From: an uncultured Cycloclasticus sp.
Lineage (GTDB): Bacteria > Pseudomonadota > Gammaproteobacteria > Methylococcales > Cycloclasticaceae
DNA: 47,339 bases
Assembly (NCBI GenBank): GCA_913060865.1
Contig: CAJXTU010000014.1
Location: forward strand, 1 to 47,339
Direction of reading: 5' to 3'
Made by a program: the position numbers and the translations under genes. The notes under the pieces were generated by a model. It saw only the letters and a program-made list of their open reading frames with translations. It was not told the origin of the DNA and ran no database searches. Below are positions 3,029 to 45,994 of this stretch, piece after piece; position 1 is the first letter of the stretch, and every line of letters begins with the position of its first letter.

Positions 3029-3214
3029 TTATCTGTTACCGTCTGTTCCCTTTTCATCTTGAATTTTATTATAAATCTCTTCTCGATGAACAGTAACGCT
3101 TTTAGGTGCGTCAACTCCAATTCTTACTTGATTTCCTTTTACCCCTAAAACAATGATAGATACATCATCTCCTATCACTAGAGACTCACCAACTTTACGC
3201 GTTAAAATAAGCAT
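3029..3214 (-). CDS. csrA: Carbon storage regulator CsrA/RsmA
   Basis: The 61-residue protein starts [18 protein letters not shown] and contains [24 protein letters not shown], nearly textbook for CsrA. It is a homodimeric RNA-binding protein that binds GGA motifs near ribosome sites and controls translation of carbon storage, motility and biofilm genes. Arg44 of the conserved VHREEI stretch, needed for RNA contact, is present. AAGGAGC lies just before the ATG. It sits between lysC and tRNA-Ser as in Pseudomonas. Its mRNA leader has a small hairpin (3229-3244) next to the ribosome site, whose GGA could allow self-repression. A BarA/GacS-like kinase at 43631-45994 belongs to the family that controls CsrA through small RNAs, though a functional link here is inference. 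Confidence 0.97.
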
Positions 3215-36082: not shown

Positions 36083-37411
36083 TTACTTTTCAAATAAAGC
36101 AATAGATTCAACATGAGAGGTATGAGGAAACATATCCATCACACCGGCCTTTTTCAGTTTATAACCTAACTCATTCACCAAAATAGCTGAATCACGCGCT
36201 AACGTCGACGGGTTACATGAAATATACAGAACTTGCTCCGCACCCCATTTAGGCAAATAATGCAAAATTTCCTTCGCACCCAATCGAGGCGGATCGATCA
36301 ATACTTTATTATATTTCTTCTTTGTCCAAGGTTCGCTGCCCACCTCTTCCATTAAGTTTGCGGTATAAAAATCTACGTTATTGAGATGGTTTTTATCAGC
36401 GTTTTCTTTTGCTCTAAGAATTAACTCTTCACTGCCTTCCACCCCTGTTACATGCCCAGCTACACGGGCCATTGGCAACGTGAAATTACCTAAACCACAG
36501 AACAAATCGAGCACGTTATCATGTTCATTAAGGTCAAGTGCATCTAACGCTCTATTGATCATAGAACGATTCAGTTCAACGTTAACCTGAACAAAATCAC
36601 TAGGACCAAAATACAAGGTGACATCATTAGGCAATTGATAACTTAACGCGGGCTTTACACCACTTAGCGGCGCGATGGTATCAGGACCTTTAGACTGCGT
36701 ATAGATATCTACATCAGCAGATTGTTCAAAACGCTTCAATACTGACTCATCATCTTCAGTTAAGGGCTCTAGAATTCTAAATACCAACGCGGTTCGATTA
36801 TCACAAATAGATACTTCAATTTGCGGAATTTTATCTTTAATAGATAACTCGCCAACCAATGCTGACAAGGCCATTAAACGCTTACCCACCGATGGGTGCA
36901 ACACGTCACATTGCTCGATTTCTGCCAAAAAGGGACTCGCCTTTTCTCTAAAACCGACGAGAACACGACCTTTCTTAACAACATCTTTCACACCTAAACG
37001 CGCCCGATGTCGATACCCCCATAAAGGCCCTGTTAAGGCAGGCCATAATTCAATATCATCTAACTTTGCAATACTTTTGAATTGATCAACAAGGATGCCT
37101 TGCTTAGCAAGAATTTGCTTAGTTGGTTCAAGGTGTTGAAAACTACAACCACCACAAACTGAGTAGTGTTGACAACCTGGTTCAACACGGTCTTCAGATG
37201 CCTTTAAAACCTCTGTTACCCGCCCTTCAGCAAAGTCTTTTTTCTTTTTACTATATTCAAAAGTAACGCCTTCGCCAGGTAAGGCACCAGAAATAAAAAC
37301 TGCTTTATCATCCACATAAGCCACACCACGACCATCATGCGCCATTGATTCTATCGTTGCGTTTGCAATTTCAGGGGGTAAATTTTTTCTTCTATTTCTA
37401 CGTCTCGCCAT
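36083..37411 (-). CDS. rlmD: 23S rRNA (uracil-1939-C5)-methyltransferase RlmD
   Basis: The 442-residue enzyme carries a TRAM domain (about 10-70), the iron-sulfur cysteines C80, C86, C89 and C168 (GCQHYSVCGGCSF and EQCDVLH) and the SAM-dependent domain with LDLFCGLGNFTLPMA and the catalytic Cys in YISCNPSTLARD near residue 396. Spacing matches E. coli RumA/RlmD. It is followed with no gap by the L,D-transpeptidase gene. Confidence 0.96.
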   Translation of the reverse strand: MARRRNRRKNLPPEIANATIESMAHDGRGVAYVDDKAVFISGALPGEGVTFEYSKKKKDFAEGRVTEVLKASEDRVEPGCQHYSVCGGCSFQHLEPTKQILAKQGILVDQFKSIAKLDDIELWPALTGPLWGYRHRARLGVKDVVKKGRVLVGFREKASPFLAEIEQCDVLHPSVGKRLMALSALVGELSIKDKIPQIEVSICDNRTALVFRILEPLTEDDESVLKRFEQSADVDIYTQSKGPDTIAPLSGVKPALSYQLPNDVTLYFGPSDFVQVNVELNRSMINRALDALDLNEHDNVLDLFCGLGNFTLPMARVAGHVTGVEGSEELILRAKENADKNHLNNVDFYTANLMEEVGSEPWTKKKYNKVLIDPPRLGAKEILHYLPKWGAEQVLYISCNPSTLARDSAILVNELGYKLKKAGVMDMFPHTSHVESIALFEK

Positions 37412-37631: not shown

Positions 37632-38519
37632 TTACCCTGGGAAGACACCAGTTGAAATATAACGGTCTCCTCGATCACAAATAATAACAACAATCGTCGC
37701 GTTACTTAGCTGCTTGGAAAGCTCTAGCGCTACATGCGTGGCCCCGCCTGACGAGACACCACAAAAAATGCCTTCTTCCTCTGCTAACCTTCTCATCGTA
37801 CCTTCAGCTTGTTGTTGATTAACCTCAAGAATTTCATCCACGCGTGAACGATCATAAATCTTCGGCAAGTATTCTTCTGGCCAACGACGGATACCGGGGA
37901 TCTTTGAATCTCCTTCCGGCTGAACACCTACAATTTGAATATCGCTATTTTGTTCTTTTAGATACATCGATGTACCCATAATCGTGCCGGTCGTACCCAT
38001 TGAGCTAACAAAATGTGTAACACCTCCAGCCGTATCACGCCAAATTTCAGGACCGGTGCCTTTATAGTGAGACAAGGGATTATCCGGGTTGGCAAACTGA
38101 TCTAAAATACGACCTTCACCCTCAGATTCCATTTGTCTTGCCAAATCTATTGCCGCTTCCATACTACCAGCAGCTGGCGTTAAGATGATCTCTGCACCGT
38201 AGGCTTTCATTGAGGAACGACGTTCCGCGCTCATATTATCCGGCATAATCAGCGTCATTTTGTAACCTTTAATAGCCGCCGCCATCGCCAAAGCAATGCC
38301 CGTATTGCCACTCGTTGCTTCAATCAGGCGATCACCGGGTTTAATATCGCCCCGTAATTCAGCTTGTTGAATCATACTAATCGCTGGCCGATCTTTGACA
38401 GAACCCGCTGGATTATTACCTTCTAATTTCAGCAGAATGTTATTCGTCGTTGAATCCATCCGCTGCAATCTAACCAGTGGGGTATTTCCAACAAAATCTT
38501 CAATAGTGGGGTATATCAT
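37632..38519 (-). CDS. cysM: Cysteine synthase B (CysM)
   Basis: The 295-residue PLP enzyme makes cysteine from O-acetylserine with sulfide or thiosulfate. PLP lysine K42 lies in LEGNNPAGSVKDRPA, the motif of CysM rather than CysK. Phosphate loop EATSGNTGIALAMAAA and the C-terminal FCGVSSGGATHVAL are conserved. Transcribed away from the TonB-dependent receptor operon, with 132 bases between starts. No Cys-operon partners nearby. Confidence 0.96.
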   Translation of the reverse strand: MIYPTIEDFVGNTPLVRLQRMDSTTNNILLKLEGNNPAGSVKDRPAISMIQQAELRGDIKPGDRLIEATSGNTGIALAMAAAIKGYKMTLIMPDNMSAERRSSMKAYGAEIILTPAAGSMEAAIDLARQMESEGEGRILDQFANPDNPLSHYKGTGPEIWRDTAGGVTHFVSSMGTTGTIMGTSMYLKEQNSDIQIVGVQPEGDSKIPGIRRWPEEYLPKIYDRSRVDEILEVNQQQAEGTMRRLAEEEGIFCGVSSGGATHVALELSKQLSNATIVVIICDRGDRYISTGVFPG

Positions 38520-38651: not shown

Positions 38652-40751
38652 ATGCAAATCATTAAAACGCTACCGTTTAGTACGCGACATTTCTTAATCA
38701 CTTTACTCAGTTGTTCCTTATCACCGTTTGTCGGCGCAAACGAAATAGACGACCTATCTTTTTTTAACACGGACATCCCCATTGTTTTGTCCGCCACCCG
38801 GCTCGCCCAGCCTCAAACTGAAGCACCCGCCTCAATTACGCTTATTGATCGCCAAATGATTAAGCTATCGGGCGCTAAAGCCATTCCCGAGTTATTTAGA
38901 CTAGTACCTGGTATGCACGTAAATTATTTTCGCGGTAACAGCCCTACCGTTGGTTACCAAGGGTTGAACAGTGAATACCCTCAGGGTGTACAAGTACTCG
39001 TTGACGGTCGCTCTATGTACAATCCCTTATTTGGCGGCGTTAATTGGCGATCATTCCCCATTAGCATTGATGAAATCGAACGCATTGAGGTCATTCGTGG
39101 TTCCAATAGCACCTCTTTTGGTTCCAACGCTTTCCAAAGCGTTGTTAGCATTACGACCATTCACGCAAGCCAAACTAATGGCATACAGCTTAAATCAACT
39201 ATTGGTGAGCGAGGTTACCAACGCTCTTACTTAAGAGCTGGGCACTCTTTTTCTGACCTCGACTTTCGTTTTAGTGCATCTCATATAGATAACAACGGCT
39301 ACGACAATAATGCAGATGATACTCGCCAAGATATGCTTAGTGCCCGTCTCGACTACCAAATAACACCTTTGGACAGTATTCAAATTAATGCGTCAGCCAA
39401 TAATACCTTATTAGAAAGTGTTAATCCTAACACCAGTGACTTTGACCCCATTGGTTTTGATCCAACTGACCCCCGACGCAATTTAGATGAATCAAACTTT
39501 GCACTTCATGCAAAATGGGAGCATTTAACCCAGAATGACCAACAATTTATAACGCAACTTTCCTATGCACGCTTTAAAACAAAAGATGCTTTTTCAACCC
39601 AATATACTGACCCTGTTTTTGGTCCAACACTGATCAACGTTGATTACACAACAGCTTTTGATCGTTGGCATTTTGAGTTTGAACACCAACTTAAACCCAC
39701 TGAAAAAACCCGGCTTACTTGGGGACTCTCTCTAAGAAATGACAGAACGTACCTGCCCTTATGGACCGGTACTCGTAGCAAACACGATAATTCCCTGCAA
39801 CGCCTGTTTAGTAACCTTGAATGGCGCCCAATAAACGACTTAATTATAAATGTAGGTGCATTATGGGAACATAGCCAACGTACTGGTGATGATTTTGCGC
39901 CTCGCCTCGCCGCAAATTATTTATTAACACCTCTACAAAGCCTACGTTTCATCGCGTCTCAATCGTTTAGGTCGCCTGTTATCGTAGAAAGCGACATTGA
40001 TGCTGAATTACAATTCAATATAACCGGTGGACCACTCCAAGCATTAAGCCCCTTAGTTATTCCGATATTTGAGAGTACACAAAATTTAACCCCCGAAGTG
40101 GTGGACTCTATTGAACTTGGCTATCACGGTCTATTTATTGATAACACGTTAACGTTAGATCTTAAATTATTTAGAAATGAATATGATCGGCTTATTGGCG
40201 ACATTGAGTGCCCTACCTGTGACGAAGGTACACTCGCTGGATTCCCCTTCAGCCAAATACCGCCAGCACTAGGCGGCCCAATTACCTCTCCTATTGATGT
40301 CAGAACCCTATTAAATCGACATCAGGTGAACGTGAATGGTTACGAAATTGAAGTTAACTACAAGCCCAATAAACAAAATTTAATACACGTCGGTTATGCC
40401 TATAACCATGCCAATGTAGGTAGCAAAAAAACAGGGGACATTGGGAATATATACTCTTCGATCCCTACGGATGTTTTTAATGCGTTGGTAGCGCATACGT
40501 TTGACAATGGTCTATGGGCGAGCGCAGCTTTTTATTATACAGGTAGCCTTGAGAACCTTGATTCTGGCCAACCACTGGGCCCAATGAGGCGTTTAGATTT
40601 AAATACCGGAAAAACGTTTCGAGTTACTGAAGGGCAAAATTTGGAATTCAACCTAAGCTTGCAGTTAGCCCTTGATAAAAACAAAGACTTTCTCAATGAA
40701 TTTATGCTCGACAACCGAGCCTTTATAGAGGTTAATTATAACTATCAATAA
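38652..40751 (+). CDS. TonB-dependent outer-membrane receptor 1
   Basis: The 699-residue protein has a signal peptide (cleavage near VGA/NE), a TonB-box-like IPIVLSATR, a plug domain (EAPASITLIDRQMIKLSGAKAIPELFRLVPGMHV ... IERIEVIRGSNSTSFGSNAFQSVVSITT), and a long beta-barrel with alternating aromatic strands ending in NYNYQ. It imports an unknown ligand across the outer membrane. A paralogue follows 48 bases downstream and shares more than half of the plug residues by eye. The next two genes are a periplasmic binding protein and a sensor kinase, suggesting a ligand-sensing unit. Confidence 0.92.
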   Translation: MQIIKTLPFSTRHFLITLLSCSLSPFVGANEIDDLSFFNTDIPIVLSATRLAQPQTEAPASITLIDRQMIKLSGAKAIPELFRLVPGMHVNYFRGNSPTVGYQGLNSEYPQGVQVLVDGRSMYNPLFGGVNWRSFPISIDEIERIEVIRGSNSTSFGSNAFQSVVSITTIHASQTNGIQLKSTIGERGYQRSYLRAGHSFSDLDFRFSASHIDNNGYDNNADDTRQDMLSARLDYQITPLDSIQINASANNTLLESVNPNTSDFDPIGFDPTDPRRNLDESNFALHAKWEHLTQNDQQFITQLSYARFKTKDAFSTQYTDPVFGPTLINVDYTTAFDRWHFEFEHQLKPTEKTRLTWGLSLRNDRTYLPLWTGTRSKHDNSLQRLFSNLEWRPINDLIINVGALWEHSQRTGDDFAPRLAANYLLTPLQSLRFIASQSFRSPVIVESDIDAELQFNITGGPLQALSPLVIPIFESTQNLTPEVVDSIELGYHGLFIDNTLTLDLKLFRNEYDRLIGDIECPTCDEGTLAGFPFSQIPPALGGPITSPIDVRTLLNRHQVNVNGYEIEVNYKPNKQNLIHVGYAYNHANVGSKKTGDIGNIYSSIPTDVFNALVAHTFDNGLWASAAFYYTGSLENLDSGQPLGPMRRLDLNTGKTFRVTEGQNLEFNLSLQLALDKNKDFLNEFMLDNRAFIEVNYNYQ

Positions 40752-40799
40752 AAAGGATCTTGATATTAGCCAAACAACACATGGAATGTCGTAAAAAAA

Positions 40800-42698
40800 A
40801 TGATTAGGTATACACTGAAAGCTTTGCTATTGCTGTGTTTAACAAGCGCTTCTCAGGCTGAACATGAAGGTATCTTTTTTGATAACCAGATTATACCTGT
40901 TGTGCTATCTGCAACTAAATTGCCTCAACAACAACGTGAGGCGCCCGCTAGCATCACGGTTATTGATCGTGCGCTCATTGAGGCATCCGGCGCCACTGAT
41001 GTTGCTGACATATTCCGCTTAGTACCAGGCATGCAAATCGGTAACTCTCGTGGAAATTTCCCTATCGTGGCTTACCAAGGTTTAAGTTCTGAATTTCCAC
41101 AAGGTGTTCAAGTTATTATTGATGGCAGCTCCGTGTACTCTCCTATTTTTGGCGGCGTTATCTGGAGCCTCCTACCGGTTCTTTTAGAAGATATTGAACG
41201 CGTTGAGGTTGTTAGAGGACCCAATAACACGTCTTTTGGTGCCAACTCTTTTCAAGGCGTTATCAATATCACAACGGCTCATGCCTCCCAAGTACCGGAG
41301 TTGAGTAGCAGTTTCAAGCTCAATAACAACCAGGCCGAACGTGCTTTTTTACGCTTTAGTAATTCACAGGTAAATGACCGACTAAACTATCGTATCAGCG
41401 TTGCTTCTGAAAAAAGTGAAGGGTATAAAAAACTGGCGGATGACTTTAGCAAACAACAATTATCTAGCCGAATAGACTTTCGTTTAAATACACATAATAC
41501 CTTACAATTTAATTTTTCTGCTCTAGATTCAATACGACAAACTCGCAACCCTATAGCCATTGCTGTGCCAATTGACCCAAAGCGTGACCGTAACGAATCA
41601 TCTCAATTTGCTCAATTAATATGGGAGCACCAAAAACCAAATGCTGAACAATTTAATGCTCATCTATCTTTCCATCATTTTGATGGAAAGGATAAATACA
41701 ATGTCGCCTCCAACACCCTAGATTTAACCACAGAGTCAACAACCTGGAATATTGATATCGAACACATTCAGGCTCTAAGCGATTCACAACGTTTAATCTG
41801 GGGGCTCGGTGCTTTACACGAATCTGTTTATGCCCCCTTTCGTACTAACTCGAAAACCAATCACACTAATACTCGTCTACGCTTGTTTGGAAATTTAGAA
41901 TCATACTTAACAAATAAACTCATACTAAATATAGGCGGTCTAGTTGAGCACGACAAACTTTCTGGCGTTAATACGTCACCTCGCATTACCTTTAGTTACC
42001 TAGCATCAGCCAAAGGCGCTTATCGCTTAACAGCCACTCAAGCTTATAGAACACCTGTTATTACTGAAGAAAAGCGTGAGATATTGCTACCTGTGGTTGG
42101 TATTATTCAATCATCAACCGGCCATTTAGATCCCGAAACAGTCCGCTCAGTTGAAGCCGGTTATCACGGCATCTTCCTGCAAAACAAGCTCAATACCGAT
42201 CTAAAATTTTTTCAAAACCATTATGAAAGACTAATTAATAACAACCTAAGTATCGCTCCAAAAGTTCTAGATAATCAACACCATGCTAGAACCTATGGCA
42301 CCGAATTAGAAGTCAACTTTCGCCCTAATCGAAAAAACATTATCCATATGGGATATGCATACACGCGTGTCAATCACGCATCAGATGAGCGATTAGAAAC
42401 CTCTGTACCTAAACATAATTTCAACCTATTGTTCTCACGCCAATATACCAATGGCTGGCACAGCGGCCTTGAATATTATTACATGAGCAAAATGCAATAT
42501 TTAGGCGGCCAAAACGACCCTCAAAGCCCTTACCAACGATTAGATTTATCCGTTGGAAAAATATTTAAGTTGGCAAATAACCAAACGATTGATATTACTC
42601 TCGACGCACAGTTAGCGCTGAATAAGAATATAGACCTTCACCAACAGGCAACGGCTGATAATTTAATTTATCTAGGGGTTCAATATCATGTTGAATAA
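40800..42698 (+). CDS. TonB-dependent outer-membrane receptor 2 (paralogue)
   Basis: The 632-residue protein has a signal peptide (cleavage near SQA/EH), an IPVVLSATK TonB-box-like segment, the plug (EAPASITVIDRALIEASGA ... IERVEVVRGPNNTSFGANSFQGVINITT) and a shorter barrel than receptor 1. The plug is strikingly like receptor 1, whereas the barrels diverge more, pointing to duplication followed by ligand change. The ribosome site is weak. Its end overlaps the next gene start by 11 bases, giving translational coupling. Confidence 0.9.
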   Translation: MIRYTLKALLLLCLTSASQAEHEGIFFDNQIIPVVLSATKLPQQQREAPASITVIDRALIEASGATDVADIFRLVPGMQIGNSRGNFPIVAYQGLSSEFPQGVQVIIDGSSVYSPIFGGVIWSLLPVLLEDIERVEVVRGPNNTSFGANSFQGVINITTAHASQVPELSSSFKLNNNQAERAFLRFSNSQVNDRLNYRISVASEKSEGYKKLADDFSKQQLSSRIDFRLNTHNTLQFNFSALDSIRQTRNPIAIAVPIDPKRDRNESSQFAQLIWEHQKPNAEQFNAHLSFHHFDGKDKYNVASNTLDLTTESTTWNIDIEHIQALSDSQRLIWGLGALHESVYAPFRTNSKTNHTNTRLRLFGNLESYLTNKLILNIGGLVEHDKLSGVNTSPRITFSYLASAKGAYRLTATQAYRTPVITEEKREILLPVVGIIQSSTGHLDPETVRSVEAGYHGIFLQNKLNTDLKFFQNHYERLINNNLSIAPKVLDNQHHARTYGTELEVNFRPNRKNIIHMGYAYTRVNHASDERLETSVPKHNFNLLFSRQYTNGWHSGLEYYYMSKMQYLGGQNDPQSPYQRLDLSVGKIFKLANNQTIDITLDAQLALNKNIDLHQQATADNLIYLGVQYHVE

Positions 42699-43647
42699 CG
42701 CCCTTCACCTGATAAAAAAGTTGCGTTATATCTATCTACTCATGGTGCTATTTGCTATGCCAATAACATCGTTTGCGCAAAACGTAACGCTTATTTATGA
42801 TGACAACAGTCTCTATCAAACTAATTTCGTTAACAGCCTCTCAGCTCAGTTGCTTTCCAACACGCATGTAAACTTAACAACAATAACGACAACCTCACTG
42901 TCGATAGAAACACTAAAAAAAGCGCCTAGCGATATCATTGTTAACGTTAATAACGATACGATAAAAAAACTCATCGCATCCAATATACCCACAACGACTT
43001 TTCATGCCTTAACCACCCTGTCACGGTCTATTGGTTTTGCGCCTTGTTTGCCAGACTGTAAAAAGAAACTACCTCAACATCATTTCTTTGTCTTAGATCA
43101 ACCACCGGCCCGACAATTAAATTTAATCCAACTCATTAACCCAATGTTTAAAGAGGTTGGCATCGTGGTAACCGAGCAATCAAAAAACCAGTTAACGCAA
43201 TTAAAGGAAATTGCCGCGCGTAAAAAATTAACGATTAACGAGCACATTAGCAGTTCAAAAAACGTACGTTACCAGATAGACAATATTTCAAAATCATCTG
43301 ACATTATTTTAGCCATAGCCGATACTGATATATACAACGCCACGTCTCTTTCTCAAATTTTACTGACCAGTTATCGCTATAGAACACCTATCATTGGGTT
43401 CTCAAAAGGCTTCATTAGAGCCGGCGCTATTGCTGGCGCGGTTAGTAGTATTGAACAGCTCGCTCAACATCTTGCTGAAAGTATTTCAACGTTTAATAAC
43501 ACGAGCGAACCCTTAAGCAACAATGTTATTTACCCCAAATACTTTAATGTTGTTAGCAATAGAAGTGTTGCGAAAAGTCTAAACTTGCACTTACCCAATG
43601 ATAATAAGTTAAAAGAGAGATTAATCACTTATGAGTCTACTCGATAG
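42688..43647 (+). CDS. Periplasmic ABC-type substrate-binding protein (ABC_sub_bind-like) without a transporter
   Basis: The 319-residue protein has a signal peptide (MVLFAMPITSFA, cut before QN) and a two-lobed periplasmic binding fold reminiscent of the ABC_sub_bind family (EVGIVVTEQSKNQLTQLKEIAARKKLTI; DIILAIADTDIYNATSLSQILLTSYRYRTPIIGFSKGFIRAGAIAGAVSS). No ABC permease or ATPase gene is near. Its 5' end overlaps receptor 2 by 11 bases and its 3' end overlaps the kinase by 17 bases. That arrangement suggests it hands a ligand to the kinase, as LuxP-LuxQ or TorT-TorS do, more than to a transporter. Confidence 0.82.
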   Translation: MLNNALHLIKKLRYIYLLMVLFAMPITSFAQNVTLIYDDNSLYQTNFVNSLSAQLLSNTHVNLTTITTTSLSIETLKKAPSDIIVNVNNDTIKKLIASNIPTTTFHALTTLSRSIGFAPCLPDCKKKLPQHHFFVLDQPPARQLNLIQLINPMFKEVGIVVTEQSKNQLTQLKEIAARKKLTINEHISSSKNVRYQIDNISKSSDIILAIADTDIYNATSLSQILLTSYRYRTPIIGFSKGFIRAGAIAGAVSSIEQLAQHLAESISTFNNTSEPLSNNVIYPKYFNVVSNRSVAKSLNLHLPNDNKLKERLITYESTR

Positions 43648-45994
43648 GTTTCAGTTAAAAGATAAATTACTTCTTTTAGGTGTTATCCCAGCCGCTACAC
43701 TGGCTATTATTCTAGCGGCTTACCTTACCTCAACTCGTTTAAACGACATGTATGACTTATTACATAAAACGAATGAGAATTTGGCCAGCTCACTGGCTGA
43801 GTCGAGTATTAGCGGTGTTTTTTCAGGTAACTTAGATTCCTTAAATACTATTATAAATTCGGCCATTAACGAGCCTGACGTTGTATCTATTAAAATCACC
43901 AATAGATCAAACACCGTACTCGCACAAGCGACCAGTAAAATCGCTACACCGACTTTAATATCTAACCCTCCTAAAAGCATCACCCAAGCAATCGAACTTA
44001 AAGCACTTAATCAAGTTGATGACTTTGATGCCTTTCTCGTTGGTCCTATCTCTACAGTCAATGAAACAATCGGTTATGTAGTATTAACTCTTTCATATGA
44101 CAGCATTCAACAGCGCCAACAGGATATATTACTGAACTCTATTTTCATCACCGTACTACTATTGTTCCTTATTGCGCTTCTCGCAAAATATTTCAGCGGT
44201 ATCATCAGTCGCCCTATTCTCCAATTAACGTCTAATGTTAAAAACATTAGTAAAGGGAATTACACCCCGCCTTCCAATATCACCCATCATAGTAATAAAG
44301 ATGAAATTACTGTTCTCGCTGATGGTATTGACGAAATGGCTCGCCAAATCAACGATCACCAACGAATACAAGAGCAAAAAGTTCTCGAGGCCACTCAAGA
44401 ATTAAGATTACAAAATGACAAGCTCTTTTCTGCTCAAGTGGAAATAGTAAAGTCAGCTGAAGCAAAGTCACGTTTTATTTCACACATCAGTCATGAAATA
44501 CGGACACCTTTAAATGGCATTATTGGTTTTCTTGAAATCATTCAACAAACTAAACTTGATAGCAACCAAATCAAGTTAGTTAACGCCTCTTATTCATCAT
44601 CAAAAAACTTGCACACCATCATCAATGAAGTCCTTGATTTTGCTGAAATTGAAGCCGGTAAAGTCATCATTAATAAAACCAATTTCAACCCTAAAGAAAC
44701 CATTCAAGATACCTTGCTACTGTTATCTTCTCAAGCAAAAGAGAATGGTGTAACGCTGGACTATCAACAGCAAGAAAATATACCTAAAATCATTCACCAA
44801 GACCGTGTTAAATTTGGTCAAATACTGATCAACCTTGTTAGTAATGCAATCAAGTTCAGTCACAACGCTACCGTTACTGTTAGGCTAAGCCTCAACCCTC
44901 AAAAAAATAACATCCTTGAAATAGCTGTTATCGACCAGGGTATCGGTATTAGTAAGCAAAATATCAAACAACTCTTTCAAGAGTACTCTCAACTTGACAA
45001 TGACACACGCAACCAAGGCAGTGGCTTAGGTTTAGCCATTACGAAACAAATTATAGATGCGCTTCATGGTTCAATTCTAGTTGATAGCACCGTAGATAAA
45101 GGCTCAACATTTACAGTCAACTTGCCGTTCACGCAGGTAAAAGACAGCTATATTAGCGCCGATACAGCAACCTTAGAGTCCCTACCTGATTTAAGCGCGT
45201 TGAATATATTAGTAGCCGATGACAATGAAATTAATCGTTTGTTATTAAGTCATTTACTAGAAAGGCAACACGCTAAAGTAACTTGCGTTAATGACGGCCA
45301 ACAAGCCGTTGACAGAGCCCGTCATCAACAATTTGATTTAATACTCTTAGACCTGAGAATGCCCATTAAAATGGGAACTGAGGCGCTGCTTGAAATTCGC
45401 AGTCAAGCCAATAATCTCAATTATAAAACACCGGCTATTGCCATCACCGCGCACATTACATCCGGAGAGGAAAGAGCTCACCACATTAGTTCATTCGATG
45501 GTTATCTGGTCAAGCCCATTGATCAGCAACAATTTTTTCAGTTAATTGAGCAGCTTATCAACGAGCATGATTACGATACACAACCTTTTATATCGACAAA
45601 TAAAAACAACGCTATCAATCTATCGAATAAACCTTTTGTTTATGAGCTCGCCAAAAAAAGCATGAATGCAGACCCATTATTCATGTCCATTATGCTTGAA
45701 AAGTTTTTTTCTGAATTACCCAAACACGACGCTAAAATCTCCTTCTTAATTCAACAGTGTGACTTTAAAAGTGCAGCTGACATTGTCCATAAAGTACACG
45801 GTTCTGCCGCTTACTGCGGAACACCCTCACTAAAAACCTCAGCCAAACAACTTGAAGAGTCTTTAGCCAAAGCTAATGACGAGCAGATTCAACAAGCACA
45901 TGACAAATTCTGCCGTGACATAAAGGCACTACTCACTTTAAAAAAAGACATACTTACCTTACTAAAAAAAAACCTAGATAAACAAGGGGTTTAA
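43631..45994 (+). CDS. Hybrid sensor histidine kinase (BarA/GacS-like: HAMP-HisKA-HATPase-REC-Hpt)
   Basis: The 787-residue kinase has membrane helices at about 13-32 and 167-187 flanking a periplasmic sensor region, HAMP (188-240), HisKA with H288 (SHISHEIRTPLN), ATPase N-box (LINLVSNAIKFS), G1 (DQGIGI) and G2 (GSGLGLAI), a receiver with D574 (LILLDLRMP) and K628, and a C-terminal Hpt with H720 (IVHKVHGSAAYCG). The chain H288-D574-H720 is complete but no response regulator or output domain is in the window. The N-terminus (LLGVIPAATLAIILAAYLTSTRLNDMY, SLAESSISGVFSGNLDSL) resembles BarA/GacS, but the operon shows it is a specialised paralogue or relative. Confidence 0.92.
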   Translation: MSLLDRFQLKDKLLLLGVIPAATLAIILAAYLTSTRLNDMYDLLHKTNENLASSLAESSISGVFSGNLDSLNTIINSAINEPDVVSIKITNRSNTVLAQATSKIATPTLISNPPKSITQAIELKALNQVDDFDAFLVGPISTVNETIGYVVLTLSYDSIQQRQQDILLNSIFITVLLLFLIALLAKYFSGIISRPILQLTSNVKNISKGNYTPPSNITHHSNKDEITVLADGIDEMARQINDHQRIQEQKVLEATQELRLQNDKLFSAQVEIVKSAEAKSRFISHISHEIRTPLNGIIGFLEIIQQTKLDSNQIKLVNASYSSSKNLHTIINEVLDFAEIEAGKVIINKTNFNPKETIQDTLLLLSSQAKENGVTLDYQQQENIPKIIHQDRVKFGQILINLVSNAIKFSHNATVTVRLSLNPQKNNILEIAVIDQGIGISKQNIKQLFQEYSQLDNDTRNQGSGLGLAITKQIIDALHGSILVDSTVDKGSTFTVNLPFTQVKDSYISADTATLESLPDLSALNILVADDNEINRLLLSHLLERQHAKVTCVNDGQQAVDRARHQQFDLILLDLRMPIKMGTEALLEIRSQANNLNYKTPAIAITAHITSGEERAHHISSFDGYLVKPIDQQQFFQLIEQLINEHDYDTQPFISTNKNNAINLSNKPFVYELAKKSMNADPLFMSIMLEKFFSELPKHDAKISFLIQQCDFKSAADIVHKVHGSAAYCGTPSLKTSAKQLEESLAKANDEQIQQAHDKFCRDIKALLTLKKDILTLLKKNLDKQGV

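Follow-up and report, generated by a model that had tools for sequence, protein, structure and literature searches.

A periplasmic binding protein and TonB-dependent receptors encoded beside a GacS/BarA-type kinase in Cycloclasticus

Background

What do GacS/BarA-type kinases sense, and could the genes that adjoin one of them in Cycloclasticus, a marine oil-degrading bacterium, encode the proteins that receive its signal? GacS/BarA is a global regulator that controls lifestyle switching in many Gammaproteobacteria. In the available parts of papers on the system, the GacS ligand is described as unknown, as late as 2025 (PMC7695008, PMC12148439), sensing is ascribed to the kinase's own periplasmic domain (PMC7695008, PMC5595915, PMC12148439, PMC8639471), and acetate is proposed as the BarA ligand (PMC8639471). 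The available text of PMC7695008 makes no mention of cysM or TonB and uses "periplasmic binding" twice, for a binding site and in a reference title, and that of PMC12148439 contains neither "periplasmic binding" nor "substrate-binding", its TonB passage being a comparison with BtuB.

The locus described here carries genes for two TonB-dependent receptors (TBDRs), a periplasmic binding protein of the ABC_sub_bind family (PBP) and a hybrid kinase. On balance we think it probable that this unit forms a sensory system of the GacS/BarA type equipped with input genes of its own, in which a signal would pass from receptor to PBP, kinase, UvrY, a small RNA and finally CsrA. Among literature titles and abstract openings, no description of a TBDR-PBP-GacS/BarA unit was found; the GacS/BarA system itself is known, and what appears to be new is a version that has TonB receptors and a binding protein dedicated to it. 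The recurrence of the arrangement suggests a testable answer to what GacS/BarA-type kinases sense, and a PBP gene beside such a kinase gene points to a specific receptor that could be purified and used to look for its ligand. If the PBP does present the signal, screens using the kinase domain alone would have missed the ligand.

The four-gene unit and its surroundings

The window, the whole 47,339-nucleotide stretch that was analysed, is contig C14 of a Cycloclasticus genome of 2.43 Mb in 39 contigs. The unit opens with TBDR 1 (699 aa, 38652..40751, plus strand), which has Pfam plug and barrel domains and no detected N-terminal signalling domain, followed by TBDR 2 (632 aa, 40800..42698, plus strand), in which Pfam finds the plug. 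The PBP (319 aa, 42688..43647, plus strand) matches PF04392, and the kinase (787 aa, 43631..45994, plus strand) combines an sCache-like sensor, scored under cut-off, with HAMP, HisKA, HATPase, REC and Hpt domains. On one side the unit is flanked by two divergent genes that mark the GacS/BarA-type locus, cysM (37632..38519, minus strand; CysM model 528.5 bits, cut-off 413) and rlmD (36083..37411, minus strand), and on the other by a ViaA-like gene. With these as its flanks, the unit is adjoined by neither ABC permease nor ATPase genes, nor by a gene for a separate response regulator.

Much of what the earlier note had read from the letters is thus upheld. The open reading frames do lie on one strand with a gap of 48 bases and overlaps of 11 and 17, the binding protein and the kinase do lack the neighbours that the note had reported absent, and the phosphorelay it had called complete is indeed present, with H288, D574 and H720 found in the motifs SHEIRTP, DLRMP and HKVHG. 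A scan of the unit for promoters and terminators gave fewer sites than shuffled sequence (10 vs 20.8 and 4 vs 7.1).

Conservation within Cycloclasticus

A search with the PBP returned matches in 31 of 301 genomes of the order, and in 14 of the 18 same-genus genomes among those listed, the window's own included. Beyond the window, 14 PBP loci from 13 genomes of the genus were read, and the gene order envisaged in the earlier note holds throughout: the kinase follows the PBP directly at all 14, as two open reading frames at two loci of one genome (L038 and L065, both G068). Such consistency means that the arrangement is not due to chance. One to three TBDR genes, some broken or partial, lie upstream at each of the 13 loci with upstream sequence, and cysM is found on the other side at all 11 loci that reach that far, with rlmD in the 10 that reach further. 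The four-gene unit is therefore real and not a one-off.

The four genomes of the genus without a PBP match suggest that the unit has been lost as a block. In G039 the flanks are conserved and the entire unit between them is missing; in G027 the unit is absent at cysM and no kinase orthologue was found; G031 retains a receptor remnant near a contig end, again with no kinase orthologue found; and in G065 the kinase sits at a contig end.

Recurrence across the Gammaproteobacteria

With an alignment of 16 PBPs as query, a match was obtained in 120 of 370 genomes of the class. From at least 150 matches listed, 100 stretches were fetched: one belongs to the window's own genome, two to other genomes of its order (G008, G015) and 97 to genomes of the class. 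The next gene on the same strand after the PBP encodes a histidine kinase at 71 loci, a fused kinase-GGDEF-EAL protein at 3 and a GGDEF-EAL protein at 8, leaving 18 with none of these. Among the 71 kinase loci, 54 have overlapping PBP and kinase reading frames; the overlap is exactly four bases in 29, and 11 large overlaps may be start-codon overcalls. At 36 of the 71, cysM, rlmD or relA lies within the fetched stretch. Counting 36 class genomes that carry the linked unit and fall in 23 family groups, together with the window's own group, a PBP gene stands directly beside a kinase gene at the cysM/rlmD locus in 24 sampled family groups.

The earlier note had treated the four genes as a single unit, and it is the PBP-kinase pair that emerges as the core of it. 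TBDRs are not a constant part: one lies within about 700 bases at 26 of the 36 linked pairs, and none was detected within that distance at the other 10, although at two of these (L234, L240) a TBDR is present a little way beyond it.

The 18 loci left over in this count are a mixed set. Six have a likely ABC ATPase gene; at two the kinase comes before the PBP (L223, L242), and one has a further HAMP-HATPase kinase (L246). At L248:4925-7557 the PBP is followed by a HAMP-SpoIIE phosphatase in place of a kinase, and at L255:7508-10904 by a stand-alone sCache_4-HAMP protein and then a separate kinase, in effect a split sensor. The remaining seven involve a contig edge, unrelated genes or a TBDR after the PBP. 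All told, the PBP precedes GGDEF-EAL, kinase-GGDEF-EAL, HAMP-SpoIIE and split-kinase outputs as well as hybrid kinases, and of three GGDEF-EAL partners scanned from the order (L053, L056, L060), two pass the HAMP cut-off. Whatever the output, the PBP stands next to a signalling protein bound to the membrane, and most of the partners scanned carry HAMP. Most simply, this would mean that the PBP signals by way of the periplasmic part of its partner.

Several related arrangements were seen along the way. The window's own genome has a second unit on contig C13 (L271:2858-10420, minus strand), with a TBDR, a PBP and a 1489-residue kinase-GGDEF-EAL protein on one strand. At three loci (L204, L229, L231) the genes after a TBDR-PBP pair include no sensor; those at L204 encode TrmO, a FabA-like protein, a ketoacyl synthase and an RlmL-like protein, and those at L229 and L231 are of similar sizes. 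An apparent PBP-GGDEF fusion at L063 proved to be an effect of ORF calling, there being two overlapping reading frames in different frames.

Of 85 non-fused PBP-kinase loci, 27 have all four reading frames complete, and partial distance correlations given cysM were computed for these. The values were 0.52 for PBP-TBDR, 0.50 for TBDR-sensor and 0.45 for PBP-sensor, and 0.40, 0.35 and 0.35 for PBP, TBDR and sensor, respectively, against the kinase core. These values reflect shared history, not contact.

The unit and the GacS/BarA locus

An independent search approached the locus from the kinase side, using E. coli BarA as query against 115 genomes of the class (E 1e-90 or better, the best seven or fewer candidates scored per genome). 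Matches were found in 32 genomes. By comparison of coordinates, 17 of the 32 best matches lie beside a PBP gene, 16 in PBP-kinase order and one reversed (G348); 6 others directly adjoin cysM and have no PBP, 3 are located at rlmD or relA, and 6 have neither within 1.5 kb. The matches without a PBP at cysM and at rlmD or relA indicate that the unit occupies the GacS/BarA position. E. coli barA itself adjoins rlmD-relA, and together with the outcome of the search this means that the GacS/BarA locus either contains the TBDR-PBP genes or has lost them.

Some of the PBP-linked kinases qualify as BarA by score. Among seven class kinases scanned, picked partly for their high BarA scores, three exceed the BarA cut-off of 890 bits (L211, 921.2; L216, 914.1; L245, 908.0). 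These three belong to one family group, their PBPs pass the Pfam cut-off, and L216 and L245 are also near rlmD-relA. The other four are BarA-like end to end and score under the cut-off (L186, 731.4; L207, 813.6; L182, 796.2; L224, 709.6). The same input pair thus recurs beside GacS/BarA-type kinases across the Gammaproteobacteria, and where the earlier note saw an unusual LuxPQ-like pathway, the unit is instead a widespread variant of the GacS/BarA locus.

Kinases of this type that occupy the same locus with no PBP raise another explanation, that the GacS/BarA-type kinase senses a small ligand of its own and the TBDR-PBP genes serve in uptake or scavenging and have no link with it beyond a shared transcript. 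The variable presence of TBDRs would fit, as would direct binding of acetate by E. coli BarA, reported in the available part of PMC8639471. An uptake module sits poorly, however, with the finding that the ATPase profile detected no ABC ATPase gene near the PBP at the cysM/rlmD/relA-linked loci. (A LivH-based permease profile matched nothing anywhere and is uninformative, which leaves the ATPase profile as the sole criterion for ABC genes.) Nor does a merely shared transcript account readily for the overlap of PBP and kinase reading frames at most kinase loci, or for a PBP pairing that persists when the output is GGDEF-EAL or SpoIIE. We regard this explanation as rather unlikely, and continue with the reading in which the PBP belongs to the sensory system. 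A bolder version of that reading, possible and put forward tentatively, is that a TonB-receptor-fed PBP was an ancestral ligand-receiving subunit of the GacS/BarA kinases of Gammaproteobacteria, lost in lineages like that of E. coli, and that its ligand is the Gac signal where it has been kept.

Class assignment of the kinase

The window kinase has the GacS/BarA-like domain order HAMP-HisKA-HATPase-REC-Hpt in Pfam, with the relay residues in HisKA (H288), REC (D574) and Hpt (H720) and hydrophobic segments at residues ~9-35 and ~163-194. Its sensor region gives an sCache_4 match of 21.4 bits, just under the cut-off of 22.1, a weak resemblance to the BarA-type sCache_4 domain. A structural model of the N-terminal 280 residues, built from a 4-row alignment, had a mean pLDDT of 47.0, too low for interpretation. 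Among NCBIfam models BarA scores highest, with 399.7 bits; since the cut-off of 890 is not reached, we call the protein GacS/BarA-type and not a BarA equivalog. E. coli BarA (918 aa) is 131 residues longer, and in the window kinase REC comes close behind the ATPase domain.

Phylogenetic placement is weak as well. In a tree of 129 kinases, a group of 73 rows (SH-aLRT 81) contains E. coli BarA together with 27 of 39 cysM-tagged kinases, all 4 regulator-tagged kinases and 2 of 6 rlmD-tagged kinases. Outside this group are the 13 Cycloclasticus rows, which share a long branch and of which 10 are cysM-tagged, along with L212, L232 and four rlmD-tagged rows. A more careful run on 40 rows chosen from this set places the Cycloclasticus and BarA-type kinases on one side of a branch (65/96), with fused GGDEF-EAL and similar kinases, TorS, RcsC and ArcB on the other; the alternative topology with Cycloclasticus outside the BarA group is not rejected (p-AU 0.387). 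By score, placement and length, then, the window kinase is divergent.

LuxP-LuxQ pairs a periplasmic binding protein with a hybrid kinase and has no importer, an outline that the unit shares with it and with TorT-TorS, whose genes were seen to be adjacent. The unit differs from both in the family of its PBP (PF04392), in a sensor with no LuxQ-type match and in its TonB receptors. Membership of either kinase family can be rejected: the LuxQ model gives 259.1 bits against 1200, its best stretch running from residue 268 on, and the Pfam scan of the kinase found no LuxQ-type periplasmic domain; TorS gives 343.2 bits against 676.5, from residue 230 on. The closer likeness is to GacS/BarA-UvrY(GacA)-Csr/Rsm, with which the unit shares the locus beside cysM/rlmD/relA and the domain layout, and whose other parts (a UvrY-type regulator, CsrA and a candidate CsrB/RsmZ-like RNA) the host genome has. 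Set against that likeness, the available parts of known descriptions mention no binding-protein or TonB-receptor partner, and the window kinase is shorter and below the BarA cut-off.

The binding protein

The PBP scores 40.9 bits against PF04392 (cut-off 25.9), and its N terminus, read by eye, is signal-peptide-like. Four named relatives (L031-L034) are all from Cycloclasticus, and solved relatives include 3lkv, 6hni and 3lft; a model from a 5-row alignment had a mean pLDDT of 51.1, too low for interpretation. The best NCBIfam model is TrpX, which relates the protein to TrpX-type ABC binding proteins, but the score is far below cut-off (47.3 vs 390 bits) and ABC genes are absent alongside, so TrpX-type import was rejected. 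An ABC importer binding protein more generally was also set aside for the unit, permease and ATPase genes not having been found among the neighbouring genes, which is what the test covered.

A PBP could still work with a distant ABC permease, its place beside a kinase being historical, and the six loci with a likely ABC ATPase gene show that some members of the family do have such a neighbour. A tree of 131 PBPs argues against extending this to the unit. Rooted at the midpoint, it splits into clades of 89 and 42 rows. The larger contains the window PBP and all 47 PBPs of cysM/rlmD-linked kinases and has no ABC-labelled row; a looser ATPase check flags only one of the 89 (L188), its ATPase-like gene lying on the opposite strand. 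The smaller contains most GGDEF-EAL-linked, all fused-output-linked and the ABC-linked proteins, and the PBPs of the six ABC-ATPase loci are confined to one seven-row clade. An importer role is thus very unlikely indeed, and the PBP is better seen as a probable sensor subunit.

Relatives of the window PBP (28-30% identical) also occur directly upstream of minC-minD in two genomes from the same taxonomic order (L048:8226-9209 and L049:8307-9293).

The receptors

TBDR 1 and TBDR 2 share the same best NCBIfam model, the TOL_0244 family (183.3 and 199.4 bits, respectively), which is also the best for four receptors from related loci. At 173-247 bits against a cut-off of 645, these TBDRs are relatives of the TOL_0244/OmpS-type receptors and not members. 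The barrel region of TBDR 2 has no Pfam match; a barrel there is predicted from the NCBIfam receptor models and from similarity to TBDR 1. In the available part of PMC6304351, TOL_0244 is reported to be up sevenfold on n-C28 alkane and to be 40.3% similar to OmpS, itself described as essential for alkane detection. The likeness is a weak hint, drawn from sequence similarity, that the ligand may be hydrophobic in this oil degrader.

FecA-type signalling receptors are alike in being outer-membrane receptors tied to regulation, but the unit has no FecR- or sigma-factor-like gene, and a Pfam scan (E up to 1) found no STN domain in either TBDR. A FecA-type transducer was ruled out on the latter ground.

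A proposed route from receptor to CsrA

In the sensory system that we favour, the TBDRs would bind a ligand and import it into the periplasm, where the PBP would capture it and dock on the sCache-like domain of the kinase. Phosphate would then move within the kinase along the observed residues, from H288 to D574 to H720, and on to an unlinked UvrY/GacA-type regulator. That regulator would activate a candidate CsrB/RsmZ-like RNA through its Gac box, and the RNA would sequester CsrA, the end point of the pathway. The genes for the later steps are present in the genome. A csrA match lies in the window itself, outside the unit (matched stretch 3059..3214, minus strand; PF02599, 93.2 bits, above cut-off), and a search of 8 genomes of the genus recovered CsrA from 6, all but G053 and G031.

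The earlier note had posited an unlinked regulator, and a candidate does exist: one UvrY/SirA/GacA-type LuxR regulator on contig C36, scored at 226.5 bits by its best model, UvrY/SirA/GacA (cut-off 280), is the best candidate partner of the kinase, a pairing that we infer. Co-occurrence of an orphan regulator with the unit, which the note had proposed as a check, holds across the class and only loosely within the genus. UvrY-family regulators (E 1e-40) are found in 37 of 37 genomes with a cysM/rlmD-linked unit vs 8 of 16 controls that had neither PBP nor BarA matches (Fisher test, p 1.5e-5, kinship ignored), or in 25 of 37 vs 4 of 16 above the curated cut-off. The 37 comprise the window's own genome and 36 class genomes; G351, with reversed order, is part of this sample, and G566, the genome of L234, was left out. 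In Cycloclasticus the regulator does not track the unit: an orthologue is found in 11 of 14 unit genomes, missing from G013 (99% complete), G062 and G068, and, among genomes without a PBP match, in G027, G031 (partial, at a contig edge) and G065 and not in G039.

For the RNA, genomes were scanned with what we take to be the Gac box consensus. A perfect box at C1:157372 is also perfect in G053 and has one mismatch in G023 and G019, and in all four Cycloclasticus genomes it is followed by an intergenic candidate of about 165 bases in which GGA occurs 7-9 times (shuffle p 0.006 or less), and which also has a TATACT element and a terminator (L281:1501-1735 in the window's own genome; also L283, L293 and L288). 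Box counts alone are weak evidence: with up to one mismatch, forward boxes barely outnumber the reversed control in three of the four genomes (own 8 vs 5, G023 4 vs 3, G019 3 vs 2; G053 has 7 vs 1). Hence only the box conserved in the four genomes together with a GGA-rich stretch was used; a second perfect box in the window's own genome (C3:127836) is inside a reading frame (L285). Rfam matches at the candidate were all sub-threshold, with CsrB at 23.1 bits vs 71 in one of four orthologues and, in L281, Hrs13 at 24.9 vs 52 and Bp1_162 at 32.6 vs 50 on the other strand.

LuxR-type response regulator genes lie upstream, on the same strand, of a number of PBP-kinase units, most with a TBDR (L197, L198, L200, L208, L219, L233, L234, L239, L241, L242 and L246); these units are possibly ready-made cognate pairs. 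Such units, together with the divergence of the window kinase and the presence of the unit in G013, which lacks a UvrY orthologue, could mean that a separate two-component system was inserted beside cysM and signals to a regulator other than UvrY, for instance an orphan LuxR-type or receiver protein. That view has to contend with the cysM/rlmD locus being shared by BarA-type kinases with and without a PBP. In the window's own genome, moreover, the only GerE (LuxR-type) matches above the family cut-off are UvrY and one other protein, L082, whose receiver appears degenerate by eye. Such an insertion we judge distinctly improbable, and the UvrY/GacA-type regulator on C36 is kept as the candidate partner in the pathway set out above. 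The L082 gene (L082:1486-2112, minus strand; C1:257654) lies between genes resembling outer-membrane efflux and membrane-fusion proteins.
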